Source: Geosiphon pyriformis
Taxonomy: Eukaryota > Glomeromycota > Glomeromycetes > Archaeosporales > Geosiphonaceae
Direction: 5' to 3'
Length of the DNA: 53,479 nt
Assembly (NCBI GenBank): GCA_016748015.1
Contig: JAAOMT010000653.1
Coordinates: forward strand, 24,160-77,638
Translations under genes and position numbers: made by a program
Shown here: positions 8,840 to 53,479 of the stretch, one piece after another
Position numbering within the stretch: position 1 is the stretch's first letter
Layout of the letters: each line of letters starts with the position of its first letter
The notes under the pieces: model-generated
What the model was told of the DNA's origin: nothing
Seen by the model: only the letters and a program-made list of their open reading frames with translations
Database searches by the model: none

Positions 8840-11060
8840 TTTAGTTTTAATATAATACAACAATATTTTGTTTTTAATTTTATAGTTAATTATATTATCT
8901 AATAATTAATTATTATGTTTTATTTTTTTGTTGTTTTTATAATTATTTAATATTTTGTACTGTCTTTTTTTTTGTTTTCTAAGATTTTTATTAACTTGTA
9001 TGTTTTTTTAAATAGTGTTTTATGAAATATTGTTTTAATAATAATATTACTTAAATATATTAAAATAATAAATTTAATTGATAATATTGTTTTTTTTTAT
9101 AAATTTATTTAAATATTGTAAATTGTATAATATTTTGTTTCAATGTTTTATATACTAATAGTATTATTAATATAAATAAATTTTATTATTTTTATGTTTA
9201 TTGTTAATTTTGATCAGTAATTTACATAATATATAATTAAACTATTTAATTAAACTATTTGTTTATAAATAATATAATAATAATAATAATTTTTTAATTT
9301 CAAATTTTTGGCTAAGTTTTTTTAATATATTATTTACAAAATATGTATTTTGGTCTAATAGCAGTTTTTGTGAATATTTATGTTAACAAATTAAGTTTTT
9401 ATGTATAAATTAAGCTACTAAAATAATATTAAGTGTTTTAATAATTTTAGTTGTTGGTTATTTAATAAATTATTTAAATTTTATTAATTCTGATAATAAA
9501 ATATATAATTTTATATGATATAATATTTTAATAATTTCTGAAGTTTAATTAGCTTTTCTATTAATATGATTTTATTTAACTATAGTGTTTTTAAGTATTA
9601 TTTAAGATTTTTGTAAAAATAATTATTTATTGTTTTTGTAATAAATATATTGATAATTTTTATGTGTATTTTATTTTTAATAAACAGTTAATATTAATAT
9701 TCTTGATATTTTTTTTATATTTAATAATATTATTATATGGTGTTAATATTTATAATTATTTAATATATTTAGTATTTTTTTGTTATTTAATCAAACCAAA
9801 TTTCTATAATTTGTAATAATATTAAAAATTTGTATTGTATATATGTATTAAAGTGAACACAACTTTAAATTATTACTAAGCATTTTAATTTATATACTAC
9901 ATAGTTTTGTTTTATTGTATTAAGACTTTTACTAATATAAGTAATTACATATTTTTTATTATTGTTGTTTTTTGTAAAAAAAATAATATCAAATTTAGTT
10001 TTAGAGATATTTATAATTAAAATGAATTTTTTGTTAAAGTTTAGATAAATTATTATTGGTAATTCAATAAACTTTTGCTTTAAGTATTTAAAAGCTTTTT
10101 GTTGTGTTTCAATCTATTCAAATTTTATATTTTTAGATAATAGATAATTAAAAAATTTAGTGATATTTAAAAAGTTTTTTTACAAAGCAGCAGTAGTAAG
10201 ATATAAATTCTAAAAAGCTTTTAATTTTTAATATATTTTAGAATACTAAAAAGTTTTTTGTTTTATTTTATTTTTTTTAATTATGTGTTCTAGAAATACT
10301 AGTTCATTTTTTCTAAAAAAACATTTTTTTAAATTTAATTTAAGTTTAGTATATCTTAATCTCTTAAAAATTTGTTGTAAATATTAAAAATAATTTGTAA
10401 ATTTTGGTAAAAAAACTTTGTATTATTCAAATAAACAATAATAAATTGTTACAGAATTTTATAGTAAATTATATTTATTAATTTTTGAAATATTACAAAA
10501 GTATTTGTTAATTCAAATAATATTATATTGAATTTATAATTGTCATTTTGTGTTGTAAATACTGTTTTATATTTGTTTTTTAGGTTTATTTTTACTTGCC
10601 AATATTTATTAGTTAAATCAAGTATAGAAAATTATTTTGTTTTTCCAAAAACATTGAAAATTTTATTAATCAATAATATAAAATATGAATTTTTGGTTAT
10701 TTTGCTGTTTAATTTGCAATAGTCAACACAAATTTTAATTTTTTTTTACTAAAACAACTAATAAAAATTATAAACTTATTAATAATTAAATTATTTTTTT
10801 TCAATATTTTTTGGACTTTTTCTTTAATAAAATTGTGTTTTATTAATAAGATATAAAAAAACATTGTTTTAATATTTAATTTGGCTAATTTTTCTGGTGT
10901 AAATTAATAATATTTTAACAGTTGTTGTTAATTTATTAAAGTAAGTTTATAATAAAGCACAATTTATAGAAAATTTAGAATTTTTTGTAATGTTAATATA
11001 TTTTTTAGCTCTGTTTTAAAATATTCAATGATAATTTTTTTTAAAATATAGATAAATTTT
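8840..11060 (-). mobile_element. Ty3/gypsy pol relic, heavily decayed
   Basis: Minus-strand translation of about 10760-10300 gives a degenerate Ty3-type reverse transcriptase: VDYCKLNSKITKNSYF, ILDLTNKYWQVKIN (motif A, Asp kept), LFELTNTFVIFQKLIN and VYLNNTKFF (the YLDD box has become YLNN). The low end (about 8850-9010) is a degraded copy of the integrase C-terminal region that is better kept at 16017-16289. The order RT then integrase on the minus strand fits Ty3/gypsy. Nearly every frame is broken by TAA/TAG. No LTR was identified. Confidence 0.6.
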
Positions 11061-11489
11061 TCTGTAATATTTGTAATAAAAATTTTTATTTATTGAGTTT
11101 TATTAATTAAAATAAAAAAATTAATAAGTCTTATAAAAAACTATTAAGTTTTTAAATAGTGCTTAAATATTAAGTCTTTTTTTTTAAATTGTTTTTTTAA
11201 TTTTTAATTTTATTTTTTATATAATATAAACATAATAAACTGCTTAATTTTAATTAATTTGCTTTTTTTTTTATTATTTTAACAAAATTTGCTTTAATTT
11301 TTTTTTATCAATCTAAAATTAAAAGTTTTTTGTACAATCTTTTTTTTAGACTTAATAATAATATTAAAAAATTTTTATCTTTTTTCAATATTATTAATGC
11401 TGTTTTGTTGTTAATAAAAGTTTATAAACTTCTAATAAGCTTAATTTTTTTTTTCAAAGTATCTTTTTGTAATTTGAATAGTATATACT
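11061..11489. other. AT-rich stretch, possibly the upstream part of the Ty3 relic
   Basis: Low-complexity AT-rich sequence on the 5' side of the decayed Ty3 pol. It could be the eroded protease and spacer region, but I cannot show this from the sequence. Confidence 0.3.
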
Positions 11490-12190
11490 ATTAAAATTCT
11501 AATGTTTAATTTGATTTAATTTAAGTTTAATTAAATTATTTGAACCAAACCAAACTCAAACAGAAGATTTAACAAAATTTTAAATTTAAACTTAAATCAA
11601 ACTTAAAATTATTGAATTTAAATATATACAACAAGTTTGGTTTAAGTTTGGTTTGAAGTTTATGAACATGTTCAGATTTGATTATTAAAAACATTATATT
11701 ATACTATATTATTATTTAATTTTTCTTTTAATGATTCTTGTATTCATTATTAAAAACACTGTATTGCTTTTATAGTTTTAAGTACTAAGTAAAACTTTAT
11801 ATTTGTAATCATATTTTTATTTGCAAAAAAAATGCATTTAAAAGCAACAAATGATTTTTGGATTGTTAAATAATTACAAGTCATATATACAAGACAAAAA
11901 AATTGTGTTTAATATGCCTAAATATCGAATTATTAATAAAATATTAATTTAGATAAATATTTTTTGTAATATATTTTCTATTATGTTATTATATTCATTT
12001 TTCTATTGGCCATTTTTTCAAAGATATAATAATTAATTTTGTCAAGTTTTTTTTCTTTATTATATTCAAAATCTGTTTTTAATATAAATTATGTAAGTAA
12101 TATTATAGTTTCATTAAAATTGCTATTTAATAAAAAACTGTTATTTAATGTTAGTATAATGTTCAGTGTGTACTCTGTTTCAAAAAAAAT
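11490..12190 (-). repeat. Left arm of a ~700-bp inverted repeat (hAT 3' end, minus)
   Basis: This arm aligns, as reverse complement, with 14878-15580 over its whole length. Shared landmarks include AACCAAACCAAACT near the outer end, ATTAAAAACATTATATTATA, and TTTTGTCAAGTTTTTTTT. Read on the minus strand (about 11900-11740) it encodes a decayed hAT dimerisation segment (CNYLTIQKSFVAFKC). It therefore looks like the 3' end of a second hAT copy in opposite orientation, abutting the 5' end of the plus-strand copy, rather than a simple terminal repeat. Confidence 0.65.
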
Positions 12191-15100
12191 ATTAGAATTC
12201 TAATTAAATTAAATTAAACTAAACCAATTTTTTAAAGTAGATTCAGTTTGAATTTGGCATTAAACTTTTTTAACAAGTCTGAGTTCAGTTTAAGTCTAGT
12301 ACAAAGTTTATGAACTTGTTTAAGTTTGATAAAATTAAAAAAAATATATAACTTATACTACTTATTTATTAATTATTACTTTGTTTAATTTTTATAATTA
12401 GTTAAAAAAGTATATAAAAATATATATGTATAACAATTCTACTTTCCAATTTACCAAAATGAATTTATTGTTGACATTATTTAATATTACTAAAGGTTTA
12501 AAATCTAAAATAATGGAATTTGATAACTCAAATAGTCCAAATATTAATATATTTAGTAAATGTAGTTTTTAGAGTAAAGTATAAAACCATTTTAATAAGT
12601 TTATATAGATAAAAGAAAAAAAACAGCTAAATATACAGTTTTAAAATGTGTACATAAACCATTTTTTTGTAGAACTATAGGCACTACTAAATTCTTATAG
12701 TGCTATTTAGAAACTTCTCACCAGACAGTATATGTTACAATAGAAAAATATTATAAAAAAAAACAAAATATTCAGAAAAATTGCAAATCAATTGAAAAAA
12801 TGGTTTGATAGATAAGATTGCTATTTTTTTTTATGATTTTTAGCCAATTTAACTAAAAAACTGCTCTAGTTTTTTGTAATAACTGTTATTAATATTGATA
12901 ATAAAAAACTTTATAACATAATTACTATTTGGCTTATCAACTGTTAACAATTACTTCTTATAATAAAAAACTTTAAATTAATCAAAATATTTCAATATTT
13001 AAATCTTACTTCTTAATCTGTTTATACTAATATAATTAAAAATAGAATTATAAAACTTTATGTCTTAATAAACAAAAATTAAAAGTAAGCACTATTTTTA
13101 TTATGAAATATCTCTTTTTTTACTTATACTTATAATATAATAGACATATTTAAATATTATTAAATCCAAAATTTTTTTTATATCAGATTTCTGAACATTT
13201 TTCAATAACAAAGCTTTTGTCTCTATTACTACTTATTATATTAATAACAATTGGAACTTTTAATAAACAATAATTAATTTTGGATTAATAAATAAATAAT
13301 ATAATAGAATAAATATTGTGAACAAATTTTTTAAAATATTAAAATATTATAAAATTACATTAAAAGTATGTATATATATTCTTATATAAATTTGGATTAA
13401 TTAATAGCCAATAATAAAATTGGCATACTATACTGCATATTAGTATCATTTAAGATTCAAAGTTATTATAATATCTATATTATTAAAGATTGCATTTTCT
13501 TAATGTTGGCTTAAGTTGGTTTTTATTATTGTCTTAAAACTAAATTTTCAGTATTAGTATTATTTAAGACTTAGAATTATCACAGTGCTCATATTATTAT
13601 TAATTATGTTTTTTCAATGTTAGTTTAAGTTGGTTTTTATCATTGTTTTAGAGCTGAATTTTTGGTATTAGCATCATTTAAAACTCGAAGTTACTACAGT
13701 ACTCATATTATCAAAAACCATGTTTTCTTAATATTAACTTAAGTGGTTTTTATTATTGCTTCGAGCCAAATTTTTAACCAAAAAGATTAAAAAAAAAGTT
13801 TAAGAAAGAATTACATATACACACTTTTTATATGAGTTTACTATTAATTTTATTAGTTATAACTTAATTTTTTTTGATAGCTTCTTGCTATTACCCTCAA
13901 TAATACCACAAATAATAATACTTTCATAAGAGAGTTAACAGAAAAATTAGAAAAAAAAACATTCAATAGAACTCAGAGGACTTTTAATTTCAATGCTTTA
14001 ATTATACTCTAAATTTGACAGTACAAACAACTTTAAATAAAATAAAAAATGATGTTTTCAAGGTATTTATTAAAAACCCAAACCAAATATATTTATTTAA
14101 AATTTTTCTAATATAAACTTTGTATAAATTAAAGATTAAGAAACTTAACTCTGTAATTTGTACTTTGCCTTAATATTTTAAGTTTTTTGAACATATTTGT
14201 AATACATGTCAAATTAAATACCATAAATTCATTCTAAATTGTTTTATTTAATGGAATTTTACTTATAATATGATCAAGAATAAGTTATTTTTTAAATTAG
14301 CAAGTTATTTATTTTTGATTCTATATATTTTAAATACAAAAATTCTAACTATAAATTTATAAACATTAAACACTCTTATTAGTACTTATATTAATATCTA
14401 TTAATATGTTATTTTACATAATTAGTGGGCTGTTTTTGATAAAATTGCTGAATTTTTTGAACTATTTAAGAATATTATAGTCAAAATGTCAGTCAGTTTA
14501 AATAATACTGTCTTTTTAATTATTTTTTTCTTTAATATTATTCTTAATTATGTCAAAGACACAATTAATAATAATGAATTTGGTAAAGCATTATAATCTT
14601 AATTATATTTATTTAGTTATTTATTTAACATATTTAATATTAGATTCATTATTTGTTATAATAGCTAGAACAGTAAGAAAAAAGTTGATTAAATATTACT
14701 CTAAAACAAATACAACTATAATGCTCTGTACTGCATTGAATCCAAAAAAAAATTCTATTATTTTACAAAAAAAAATTTTTGGATGACAATATTAATAAAA
14801 TAAAAGAATTATAAGTTATTAATTTATTCAAATAATTTTATTTTCTAACTTTTACACAATAAATAAATCTTTAAAATATGTATTCTTTTTAAAATAAAGT
14901 ACACATTAAATATTATACTAATATTAAATAACAGTTTTTTGTTAAATAGCAATTTTAATAATATTATAATATCAGTTATATAATTTATATTAAAAACAGA
15001 TTTTAATAATAATAATAAAAAAAAACTTGACAAAATTGATTGTTATATTTCTAAAAAAGTGGTCAATAGAGAAATGGATATAATAGCATAGTGGAAGATA

Positions 15101-40829: not shown

Positions 40830-43800
40830 GTAATATGATCTGGAAAATCATGACTTGTAATGTTAGAGAAATGAACAATCCTGTGAAACAAGATGATATT
40901 ATTTGTTGCATAAGGAAAAAAACAATTTAGTTTCTATTTTTATGGAGTCAAAATTGAAAGGAAAAGTTTGCTCCTGGATTGTCAATAAATTTGATGATGT
41001 ACAGGTGTTTACCTCTGGTTTAGAATCTGGTTATCTGGGTGCTGGTGTTGTGGTTGTCATGAACTCTTCTTTGGCAAAACATGTATGTAAAGTTTCAGAA
41101 GTGTCTGATTGGCACCTGTCTATCAAGTTGCTTTTCAAAAATAATCTTTCTGTATCAATTTTGGGGCTTTATGCTGGTGCCTCTTTGGTGGCCCAGTTTT
41201 CTCAGGCAGGCAATATCAATTCTCTTATAGCAAAAGCTGTCAATGAATCTTCTTTCGTCATTCTTGGAAGTGATTTTAATGAAGATGGTTCTCATAAGTG
41301 TGCAAGTTTCAAGAAATGCCTGGATTTTGGTTTGGTCAATGCCTTGGGTGGGAGCTCTTGTAAGAAATCACCAACTTGGTCCAATTCTCGAAATGTTGTT
41401 AAGACAATTGATTATGTGCTCATTTCTTTGAACTTGATCAATGTGGTAGTGGGTCGTAGCATGTTTGGTGTTGAAAAATACTTTAATACTGATCATCAGA
41501 CTGTCTTAGTGTTGGTGGGTTTGGGTGGTTTGCTTGATGTCTGCTTAAATTTTGTTTACAAACAGACAAATAAGGATTGTTGGAAGTACAATTACAAAAG
41601 TGCAGATGGTATTAAATAGGCCAAATTTAAGGATGATATGGCAGCAAATGCTGCTATGCTACATGATGACTTTCTTGCAGCTGGTATGCACTCAAACCTG
41701 GATGCAATGTGGGTTGCTCTCCATAAAGTGTTATGTCTGTCTGCTGAAGCAGTTTTTAAGAAGAAATGGTTCAAGAACTATGATCATGTTTTTGTTAAGG
41801 AGTCATCCAAATTTCACAAGCTGAAGCTTTTGGTGTCAAAGTTAGTTAAGGCATCTTGTTTGGATTCTTTTGGAGAATTTACATTCTTGCTTGGCAAGTG
41901 AGAGGGTTTGGATTCAGTTAATGCTTCTATGGTGAAGTCTCTTTTTCTGTCAGGTTCCTTCTTTGATGCCATATGATCAGTTTTGTCCAAAGTTAGGAAG
42001 TTATATCACTCCTCCAAAATGTCAGAAGCAGAATGTGTTAGGAAATCTAGAATTAGGTCAGCAATAGATAAAAGGATAGAAAGTTTCGAATTGAACAAAG
42101 ATCATACTATTAGAAATGTACTAGAACATCCTTTTTACAAAGTGACTTTGGATCATTTGGTCATGGATAATAAATTGGTTTTGGAACCTGATCTGGTTAA
42201 AACCAAAGTAGATGTGATTATGGAAGGGTAGACTAGAAAGCACAATGTGGTTTCTGTTGTCTCTAGTGTATAGTATCACTAATATCAGCTTTTGGAGTAT
42301 ATTTTTGATGATGCTTTTTTTGATGTAATATGCCCAATTGACTTTGATAAGATGTCTAGTGTTATCTCAAATCTGTCTGATGGGAAAGTGGCTGGTTTTT
42401 TTGGTATCTCAAATGAGTTATAGAAACATTGTGACAGATCAGTTTTGAATATGCTTTTGGTGCTTTTGAATTCTTGTTTGAATTGTGAATCTGTTCCTGG
42501 GCCTTGGAAGGAGGCTTGAGTGTCAATGATCCCCAAACCATATGAGTGGAAGAGTGTTCTCATGAACACCCATCCTATTGTTTTGATTAAAATGGCTCAC
42601 AAAATCTTTTCCAAGATTCTTTCAGACAGGATTTTTTTTGTGTGCAGTAAGTTTAATGTTCTTAGAGGGAATAATTTTTCTGTTCTAAAAGGTATGACCA
42701 CACAATCTCCTATTTTTGCTATTGGATCAGTCATTAAAGATGCTTTGGAAAAGAACTGTGAGCTGTAGCTGGTATTGTAGGATATGCAGAAAGCTTATGA
42801 TTCTGTTGGCTGGGAGCATCTTAGGGAGAGTTTAGTCAAGATAAAGATGTGTAACAAGCTTATTTGGTTTTTTGGTGGCATTCATAATGGTTGGGTCAAC
42901 AAAGTTATGATGAATTTTTGGTTGACTGATGAATATCAGGTGCATGATGGTTTGGACCAAGGAGAGGTGTTTTCTTTTTTTCTTTGGCGCATATTTTATG
43001 ATCCTCTTTTGTGTGAAGTCAAGAAACAAGGAAGTGTATGTGGATACAGATTGAACTCTCGCTTTGTAACTGGAACTGATTGCTCTGAATCTTGAACTGG
43101 TTTGACTTCTTTTCTCACTGCAGGTGTTTTTGTCAATGACACTATTTGGGTTAGTAACAGCCAGACTGCTACGCAACATATTCTCAATGTCACTAGTGAA
43201 TTTTTTTGGATTAATAACATTTCAATCAATAATGACAAAACAATAGCTATTTCCATTAATTGTAGAGTCTCTGAGCCTTGTTTGCTGATCAGTGGTTTGC
43301 CTATTTTAATAGCCAAGAAAGGGGAGTCTTATTGGTACTTGGGCATTTTTCTGTCTATTGAAGGTTTGTCAAAGCCTAGCTTAACTAGGGCCCATCTGGA
43401 TGTCCGGTTTTTTACCAATCTTGTGCTGAGAAAGACTGTTTTTGACAAACAGTTCTTGTATTTAGTGTCAGCAGTTCTTTACCCCATTATTGCATACAGG
43501 ACTCAGTTTAGTTTTGTTTCTATTAATATGTGTGCAAAATAGGACACTATAATTCACAAGAGTTTGAAATCCAAATTTGGCTTGCCACATGACTTTCCCA
43601 ATAATGCTATTCACCATCCTTTTCTGTATGGTTTGAAGTCTTTTGAACAGATCCAAGCTAAAAGCAAGTCAGCTTCTGTTGTTGGTTTCACCAATTCTGT
43701 TGGTATCTTGGACTATTTGTTTGCACATAGATCACATGACTTGCAGGTCCTCAGCTGGCACCCTCGCCACCTCCTGCTTTTTCCTTCTTATATTAATATC

Positions 43801-50027: not shown

Positions 50028-50235
50028 TTTAATGAGAAATAAATCTTATTCTACAATAACAAGAGATACAAATACGAGTACCCCATATTTTGACAAAAAT
50101 GTATATCCCAAATTACTTTAAAATATTTCCAGAGAAATATCCAAAACGCTAAAATACTTATCCTTGTAAAAATTGTATGGTCTTAAATTTACCTTTTCCC
50201 TGAGAATTGTCCACCTATGTCTGGAATTACATTGA

Positions 50236-53200
50236 TTAAAAATCTGATCCAGGAATTTTGAACGTTTCAGCAAGGATCATATATCTCGAAACCAATTTGT
50301 CAACGGCTGGTGATAAGTTCATTGAGATAAGGTTGTAGTGTATCTTGGAAAGTCCTTGAACTCTGATTATTTTGTTAAGATTATGACAAACGGCGGTTGG
50401 ATACTAAAAATTTTTGTATGGTTCCCAATGGAGGAATTTTGAGTGCATAATTTTGTGAATTAAAAGACAAAAAGCTCAAAATTCTTACAATTATCTCATG
50501 ATACCACCGTTCATGATATACCGTCAATTTGACGACAGCTGTTAATGTACGTTGGACATCCCCTTCTTCGGCATAATATTCTAACAACTTTAACCAAGCT
50601 TTAGGCGAAAATTTGAAATCGAGGCAGCGTTGGTATGCTTCTTTAGCTTCTTCCTGTGGAAAAAAATAGGAACCATGAAATCAGGATTGATATAGGTATT
50701 TTCCAGAAGATTGAATACATGACTGACCTTATGATGCAGTCTAGAAGCCAAATCGCCCAAAATTTCCCATTCTGCCCCAGCCTTGCGATACAATAATTGG
50801 TGAGCTTTGTAATGGGACATTTCGGACCGCCATAGAGTGTATACTCTTAAATCCTAAATAAGTTGCTTTCGTTATTATACAGCGCGCTAAAAAACAATTG
50901 ACCATTGCGTTCCAAATAACACTCACTTCATATAAAACCATGAATAAATTATCAAGCCATCTAATATTATGAAAATTTGTTATAATAATCTTAGAAACCC
51001 GGTTGAGAAGAATTAATACACACCTTTCACATAAACGTTTATTATTAAATGAAAATGCGTAATCCTTTTTGGTCACTGTCTCCTGGATAAATGAGAATTG
51101 GATAGGTGTAGATGTTTTATGATCATAAGGAGCGAAAGGATTTTGTGGTTGGTTTTCACACCTTATTGGGTTCTTCATGTTGGCTCGGAGAATCGTTTTT
51201 TTCCTCGTTTGCCGCTTGCAAAGGTTTTTCCAATTCAGGTCCTTTAAAAGATATAGGTTCCGAAACGGAAGTTTCTTCAAAACTCTTTTTTTCTGATGTT
51301 TCCTTATCATCTTCTAAATTAACTTCTTCTAATGCTTCTGAATCGGTCGAATGTTCATCGACCACTGTTGATTCTCCAATTTCTTGCAGGGATCGTGATT
51401 CTCCTGTCGTCGATTCCAAAGAATTAACTTCTGCCGGGACCTCATTGTGGTTAGGAAGAGACGTCTCAAAAGTTTCATCAGCAGATGTCAAAGACTCGAC
51501 AGCATCATCTTTCTGCAATTTCTTCTCTGAAGAAGCATTACTGTCCTCATTTTCCTTGTCCTCATCTGACTCCCCGGAAATAGCAATTTTGGGAATAGAA
51601 TAATTTAAATTGTTGACCCCATTAGTTTTAACCTCGTTGATGGGGTCGGCAGAAGGAGGTGGTTTTGTTTCATTATCAAAGGCTGATTTTTGATTTTTTT
51701 TATGATGTTCTTCCTCAGCAGCTTTCTGCAGCCTATACTCTTCTTCCATTACAAAAACAGAAGATCGGCATTTCAAAAGTTCATCCCAACCAATCTTGGC
51801 CACTAAACGTGTTAATAATGAATACGCTTTCGAGAAAGTGCCACGGAGGGACGGTGCTGGTAAACGGAGGAGCGCAACGTCCACCTTTATTTTTTATTAG
51901 TTAAGAAAACGTGATTAAAAGAGTGAAATTGGCAAATGGGGAATTCTTCGGAAGACAAGATAAAGTGGAAAATGACCAAAACCTCGTTATCCCGCCCGCT
52001 ATCTTCATCCAGGCCTGCATTTACAATTTCCGGTTTTATAGGAAGATGAGTTTTAGCAGGAGTAGGCATGCGATGCATGTCTCTTTCATTGTATGTAAAC
52101 ATGGGACAAGAATTCAATGTCAATAGTGCCTTTAGAAAATTTGATATACACATAAATAGGAATCAAAGATTATGATTTAGTAAATTATCTAATAAATTCA
52201 TAAAAACTTAATTATTTGACACCTACAGATTCATAATCACCCAGAGCAATATAAACCTCAGTCAGCTTTGCCCAAGTCACAAATTCAGATGGAGCACAGT
52301 TTACTGCTTGTTTGGCCAGTTTCAAAGCGTATTCCGTTTTACCCTGATTTATTGATTAAAAAAATGATTTCTATAAAAAAATGAAAAATAAATAATAAAG
52401 AAAGTTTTAATCTAACCTTGGTCAATAAGAAATCAGCTTGCACATGTAATAAAGCATAGCTCATGGAATTTTGTTTCAAAGCTTCGTATAGTATGTTGAC
52501 TCCTTTAATTTCCTCATCTAAAATAAAATAAAATTATTAGAATAAATAAACCAAGTATGTAAAGTAATAGAAAGAACGCACCCATCCCAATGTAAGATTT
52601 AGCTAATAAAGCAGCTACTTCAGGATCTTTACGATACAGTGAGAATGAGTTATGGAATAGCATTGAAATATTAAGTATAAGCAAAAGATTGGCGAATTGC
52701 CAAAAGGATATATTTTTCAAAAAGATTGACAGCGGGACCATATCTGAAATTTTCACTGAAATATTTCATAATTCCTGCCGTCAGATGATTGCTTACGACA
52801 GTTGCCACTTGAATTTCGGGATCTGAGCCCAATTGCCACCCTATATGCAAATTTTAGGGATAATTAGATAGAATTTCTTACAAGATCGATACCCATCATA
52901 AAAACCTTTGAAAAACAAAGCTTCAGCCGCTTCAAGAAAATGAGTCTCAGCTTCGATATTTGGAATAGGATCTAATTTGCGGAAACCAGCCAATCGATAA
53001 TTGACATCATCTGAATAAAGAATAGAGCGAAGCAAAGCGGAAGTATAGGTTTCTTGCCAAATATCTGAGGTGGCTTCATGCCTGTATTTTTTAATAGTTT
53101 TGTTGTTGTTGTTATTGTTGTTATATTTACAAAATTTGAGATAAGACGAACACTTGCACCAAAAAATATATCATCTTTCCTCTCCCCGCGTATATCAACA

Positions 53201-53419
53201 ACGTAACTTTCGACACTTCCGGGAATCTTCACCTCAACTCTCACATCCACACGCGAAAAAGCATTAAAACAGCTGATGAAATTAATTAATAAATCTAATT
53301 AGATACAATAGTAAAAAACCACGAACCCACAGACGTATCGAAAAATAATTTAATCACCAATATATCCCCGAGCGTATCCTCCAAGCGGGAGATTTTGAAA
53401 ACCAAGCATGATTTTCTTC
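50236..53419 (-). CDS. ChAPs family protein (Chs5/Arf1-binding, exomer subunit), 5' partial
   Basis: Fourteen exons on the minus strand join in one frame to about 730 residues; the start lies beyond the window (the bases after 53419 are intron). Exons: 53419-53358, 53272-53160, 53073-52882, 52840-52712, 52638-52582, 52517-52417, 52343-52227, 52129-51983, 51884-51162, 51082-51024, 50960-50927, 50853-50728, 50653-50489, 50403-50236. Family blocks: NAFSRVDVRVEVKIPGSVES, WQETYTSALLRSILYSDDV, TPR-like repeats (LYRKDPEVAALLAKSYIGMD; ALKLAKQAVNCAPSEFVTWA), KDYAFSFNNKRLCERWLDNL, VKLTVYHERWYHEI and the C-terminal IPGSDF. In yeast Bch1/Bud7-type ChAPs work with Chs5 and Arf1 to carry chitin synthase and other cargo from the trans-Golgi to the surface. 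Exon 9 adds a long acidic Ser/Glu-rich insert. The exon 2 donor is ambiguous (G|GTGCAA or A|GTGTTC, both in frame). Intron 4 is AT-AC. Confidence 0.92.
51255..51720 (-). other. Acidic Ser/Glu-rich low-complexity insert of the ChAPs protein
   Basis: Within exon 9, after VMEEEYRLQKAAEEEHHKK, roughly 150 residues are rich in Glu, Ser and Asp (ESDEDKENEDSNASSEKK, DEHSTDSEALEEVNLEDDK) before the conserved KDYAFSFNNKRLCER. It is likely disordered, with many acidic Ser sites of casein kinase 2 type. The opposite-strand Ser-rich open frame (51112-51603) is its shadow. Confidence 0.75.
52639..52711 (-). other. AT-AC U12-type (minor spliceosome) intron
   Basis: This 73-nt intron of the ChAPs gene starts ATATCCTTTT and ends CTCAC on the minus strand. 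Removing it joins LFEK to LYRKDPEVAALL in frame (T + TG). TTCCATAACTC, one mismatch from the U12 branch consensus TTCCTTAACTC, lies with its branch A 11-12 nt before the end, the spacing expected for U12 introns, and there is no pyrimidine tract. There is no GT near LFEK and no AG at the 3' border, so no GT-AG intron fits this junction. Confidence 0.88.
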
Positions 53420-53479
53420 CTAGAAGAAATTAGAAACAAAGTTGAGCGATGTTTTACGATTCGGATCATGGAGACTAAC

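Follow-up and report, generated by a model that had tools for sequence, protein, structure and literature searches.

In the window, that is, the whole stretch of DNA analysed (53,479 nucleotides from Geosiphon pyriformis), the single-copy gene for the exomer cargo adaptor ChAPs very probably contains a genuine U12-type AT-AC intron, which would be removed by the minor spliceosome as proposed in the original prediction. The intron occupies positions 52639..52711 of the minus strand, is 73 nt long and interrupts the reading frame in phase 1. The genome encodes U11, U12 and U6atac snRNAs, a U4atac candidate, and the proteins CENATAC and TXNL4B. Both the splicing of this intron and the machine carrying it out are inferred from these sequence features.

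A probable AT-AC intron in the ChAPs gene

The intron has the layout ATATCCTTTT...TTCCATAAC...AC, and its full string reads ATATCCTTTT ... TTCCATAAC TCATTCTCAC (minus strand, 52711-52639). The limits named in the original prediction proved to be exact, as position 52711 is the A of ATATCC and position 52639 the C of the terminal AC, the latter representing the 3' splice site (52639..52640, minus strand) as judged by motif. Branch sites of U12-type introns follow the consensus TTCCTTRAC, from which the branch-site element TTCCATAAC (52649..52657, minus strand) deviates at one position (8/9), and its last C is separated from the intron end by 10 nt. The 5' splice site ATATCCTTTT (52702..52711, minus strand) was assigned by motif match and by pairing with U11; the donor ATATCCTT is identical at 8/8 positions to RTATCCTT, the U12-type donor consensus (PMC2846911; here and below, the cited papers are covered in part).

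On both strands of the window RTATCCTT occurs at four sites, and only the ChAPs donor has a branch-like element in the 3 kb that follow it. A loose motif set (RTATCCTT, TTCCNTRAC and A[C/G], gap ≤300), which leaves the in-frame join out of the count, was found once in the window and was present in 6 of 300 dinucleotide-shuffled windows. Hence, the motif alone carries moderate weight, and the in-frame join adds more.

The gene part was modelled by hand over positions 51156..53272 (minus strand) and comprises 8 exons and 7 introns. Apart from the AT-AC intron, all six introns within 51156-53272 are GT-AG introns, in line with the expectation that the others would be ordinary; this includes the ambiguous one at 53153-53074, for which the acceptor was picked as the one giving FFGATTSDIWQETYTS. 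The joined protein matched the Pfam family PF09295 with 428.3 bits (E 3.6e-128, cut-off 20) over profile positions 55-395 of 395, and yeast BCH1 (4in3_B) with E 1.2e-37. PF09295 also gave matches in 3 of 14 control genomes, two of them above cut-off; therefore, lone weak pieces mean little, while the full-length match carries weight.

At the AT-AC intron itself, the exon directly upstream (52712..52840, minus strand) lies in an open frame (52671-52853) that matches PF09295 with 38.7 bits. The exon directly downstream (LYRKDPEVAALLAKSYIGM; 52582..52638, minus strand) matches PF09295 only within the joined protein; its open frame by itself yielded no ChAPs match in the PF09295 profile search. 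The join, GAA AAA T/TG TAT CGT (the slash marks the splice), translates into FEKLYRKDPEV. Indeed, the local piece spliced in this way scored 105.3 bits against the Pfam ChAPs profile, unbroken over positions 153-247, which bears out the predicted in-frame joining of conserved ChAPs sequence. When the intron is kept, the frame continues for 13 codons before reaching a stop, and the truncated piece scores 35.0 bits, a fall that reflects in part mere shortening. When the 73-nt stretch was shifted by -12 to +12 nt, 3 of the 25 placements yielded the ChAPs protein, namely AT...AC itself and the shifts by -2 (AT...TC) and -1 (TA...CA). The stretch contains neither a GT nor an AG.

The window ends where its contig (C236) ends, and the N-terminal ChAPs coding sequence lies outside the window on a second contig (C84), where profile positions 3-32 of PF09295 were matched. 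Over its final 3289 bases (50191-53479), the window is 100% identical, in reversed orientation, to the end of C84. Thus, the ends of both contigs overlap without having been joined, and a single ChAPs locus was counted twice. A second ChAPs copy on C84 as a paralogue was considered and rejected, since the 3289-bp identical overlap of contig ends denotes the same locus, and the C84 copy consequently provides no independent evidence of conservation. By eye, a long acidic low-complexity tail (51156-51893) is seen after the conserved ChAPs core, followed by further ChAPs-like C-terminal frames down to ~50380.

Minor-spliceosome components in the genome

The original prediction held that the organism has a minor spliceosome, and had named a genome devoid of any minor snRNA as the outcome speaking against it. 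Rfam models were searched one at a time in the genome and in 14 control genomes. Single matches above the respective cut-offs were obtained for U11 (80.9 bits, cut-off 39), U6atac (70.9 bits, cut-off 33) and U12 (55.1 bits, cut-off 53). U4atac likewise gave one match, a candidate scoring 43.7 bits and thus below its cut-off of 53. None of the minor snRNAs was detected above cut-off in the 14 control genomes; in one of them U11 appeared below cut-off (E up to 1).

The U4atac candidate can pair with the U6atac encoded at another place in the genome, at 9/10 positions of stem II and at 7/7 positions of stem I. In comparison to the Rfam consensus, both partners have changed in two pairs (GC to AU, UA to CG) and an unpaired UU has become GC, while one pair is lost and one has turned into GU. 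None of 5000 shuffles attained the duplex energy of stem II, and 35 of 5000 attained that of stem I; a longer duplex spanning both stems was matched in energy by 24 of 2000. Given this compensatory pairing with U6atac, U4atac is probably encoded despite the score below cut-off.

Pairing of these RNAs with the intron differed in distinctness. The pairing of the U11 5' end with the ChAPs donor was equalled by 14 of 2000 shuffles, whereas that of U6atac with the same donor was less distinct (263 of 2000). The predicted pairing of U12 with the branch element was weak and no better than expected by chance, being attained by 777 of 2000 shuffles.

In addition to the snRNAs, two proteins linked to AT-AN introns were identified. 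Three pieces of CENATAC (PF14968) scored above cut-off on one contig (C355), covering profile positions 1-37, 249-295 and 298-329 of 330, and the family was found in 0 of the 14 control genomes. The DIM1 family gave matches on two contigs. The gene on C367, assembled by hand from three open frames, matched TXNL4B with E 5e-63 as compared to 3.4e-26 for human U5-15kD/hDim1 (TXNL4A); the gene on C197, inspected by eye, we take to be TXNL4A. In human cells, AT-AN minor introns are retained upon loss of CENATAC, whose strongest interactor is TXNL4B (PMC8280824). As in this human CENATAC-dependent AT-AN system, both CENATAC and its partner TXNL4B are encoded here. Taken together, the three snRNAs above cut-off, the paired U4atac candidate, CENATAC and TXNL4B uphold the prediction that a minor spliceosome is present.

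Further AT-AC candidates

A strict AT-AC pattern returned 4 further matches in the genome and 1 in the control; the ChAPs intron is not among them because its branch element misfits the strict pattern. The corresponding strict GT-AG pattern returned 1 match in the genome and 4 in the control, and the subtype that is commonest elsewhere has thus no support here. This single GT-AG match (C241) was rejected as an intron, with 42 aa spliced versus 64 aa kept, no Pfam match and the 4 matches in the control.

Including the ChAPs intron, the five AT-AC candidates span 73-89 nt (one up to 93 nt via another acceptor). When the longest frame through each site was compared, the spliced form was longer for C354 (138 aa versus 107 kept), C389 (134 versus 74), C258 (219 versus 201) and C272 (160 versus 155; here the kept frame is a different one, and the upstream frame stops at 53). 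Accordingly, frame length clearly supports the candidates on C354 and C389, weakly supports those on C258 and C272, and speaks against C241.

The host on C354 (L017, C354:1014000-1016400) is a four-domain cation channel that aligns with NALCN across the join (E 8.3e-16). Voltage-gated channels are classic minor-intron hosts in animals. The candidate intron in this gene sits just before an EF-hand-like region. The host on C272 (L020) is XPG/ERCC5-like, again with an alignment across the join (E 8.8e-7). For C258 (L019), three acceptors fit, of which the first was taken; the host contains an LsmAD domain (ataxin-2-like, PF06741, E 4.6e-14) downstream of the join, which is thereby placed in frame with the preceding exon, and its PDB matches were no better than E 0.16. 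Matches of the C389 host were weak, none being better than E 0.0045; we assume it to be NRDE2-like. A limited literature search on XPG, ATXN2 and NALCN found no minor intron in these hosts, and the words 'ataxin' and 'XPG' are absent from the portions of text covered of PMC2846911 and PMC2831892.

Among human minor introns, 26% are of the AT-AC type (PMC10639083). The share of 4/5 among the strict matches exceeds this value (binomial p 0.018, 95% interval 0.28-0.99), but strict patterns favour introns with strong consensus and the two used here allow different gaps (30-60 and 25-55), so that an excess of AT-AC among the minor introns of this genome is only hinted at. With these reservations, we tentatively envisage a reduced set of minor introns, mostly or only AT-AC, that might be kept by a machine retaining CENATAC and TXNL4B. 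As part of the same speculative reading, GT-AG minor introns may have been lost or converted, while AT-AC introns, being hard to turn into U2 introns, may have stayed. If the excess is true, the fungus offers a direct test of AT-AC minor-intron persistence versus GT-AG loss, and CENATAC function becomes testable outside animals.

Alternative readings, proposed mechanism and relation to known systems

AT-AC ends alone leave undecided which machine acts on an intron (PMC2831892), and the ChAPs intron might be a substrate of the major (U2) spliceosome, like intron 21 of SCN4A; the weak pairing between U12 and the branch element would agree with this. However, the donor carries C at +5 and +6, whereas U2-type AT-AC introns of sodium channels have G at +5 (PMC2831892), and the minor snRNAs are present in the genome, all of which renders U2-dependent removal very improbable. 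Absence of splicing altogether, with an insertion or an assembly error having broken the ChAPs gene, is scarcely credible: the inserted stretch carries minor-intron signals at the right spacing, other genes carry the same signals, and two overlapping contigs agree over 3289 bp, albeit representing the same locus and hence no independent biology.

The true intron could also be a longer one of the GT-AG type, the AT-AC frame being incidental, as eight frame-keeping open GT-AG alternatives cover the stretch. Yet each of these deletes at least 13 codons, and the 3 of 8 that were scored against the Pfam ChAPs profile reached 76.2, 72.8 and 70.5 bits versus 105.3 bits for the AT-AC intron, which leaves this explanation next to no chance of being correct.

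For the preferred U12-type AT-AC intron, the following mechanism can be proposed. The ATATCCTTT donor and the TTCCATAAC branch element would serve as recognition sites for the U11 and U12 snRNPs. U4atac/U6atac.U5 would join along with CENATAC as well as TXNL4B, and removal of the intron would link FEK to LYRK. As retention of the intron ends the frame early, the minor spliceosome should be required for making ChAPs protein of full length. This dependence of ChAPs expression on the minor spliceosome is deduced from sequence.

Minor introns are already known from early-branching fungi, and the ChAPs case is a further example. For Rhizophagus irregularis, 205 minor introns have been described together with the complete set of four snRNAs, Basidiobolus has 249 minor introns, and ~20 and ~4 are found in Phycomyces and Rhizopus, respectively (PMC10639083). 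The signals described here resemble those of these four fungi in that the same kind of donor and branch sequences occurs together with minor snRNAs in the same genome. In contrast to these fungi, matches to the strict consensus are few here and GT-AG ones are unsupported. In Phycomyces, 8-9 AT-AC and 8-12 GT-AG minor introns were reported, and thus AT-AC introns make up a large share there, too (PMC2846911). The AT-AC subtype prevails in Blastocystis, where it accounts for 196 of 253 minor introns (PMC10639083), a likeness that is only hinted at here. Unlike the present fungus, with candidates of 73-89 nt (one up to 93 nt), Blastocystis is a stramenopile whose minor introns average just under 42 bp.

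What the ChAPs intron adds is one firm case, accompanied by snRNAs and two AT-AN-linked proteins, of fungi outside Ascomycota and Basidiomycota keeping the minor spliceosome, and it places a minor intron in a trafficking gene. By its function, ChAPs presumably belongs to the class of vesicle-mediated transport. This class is enriched among the minor-intron genes of Rhizophagus (PMC10639083). ChAPs is not named as a minor-intron host in the parts covered of PMC10639083 and PMC2846911, and a limited literature search joining exomer or ChAPs with minor splicing found no ChAPs minor intron.

Elsewhere, the window is AT-rich, with a GC content of 16-37% per 5 kb over positions 1-50000; the lowest 5-kb bin is 10001-15000 (16.3%), the others ranging from 22.9 to 37.2%. 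This AT-richness and the presence of a ChAPs gene are compatible with a fungal origin. An open frame at 40897-41616 gave a weak match, below cut-off, to endonuclease-reverse transcriptase (PF14529, E 0.0052) and is perhaps the remnant of a retroelement.
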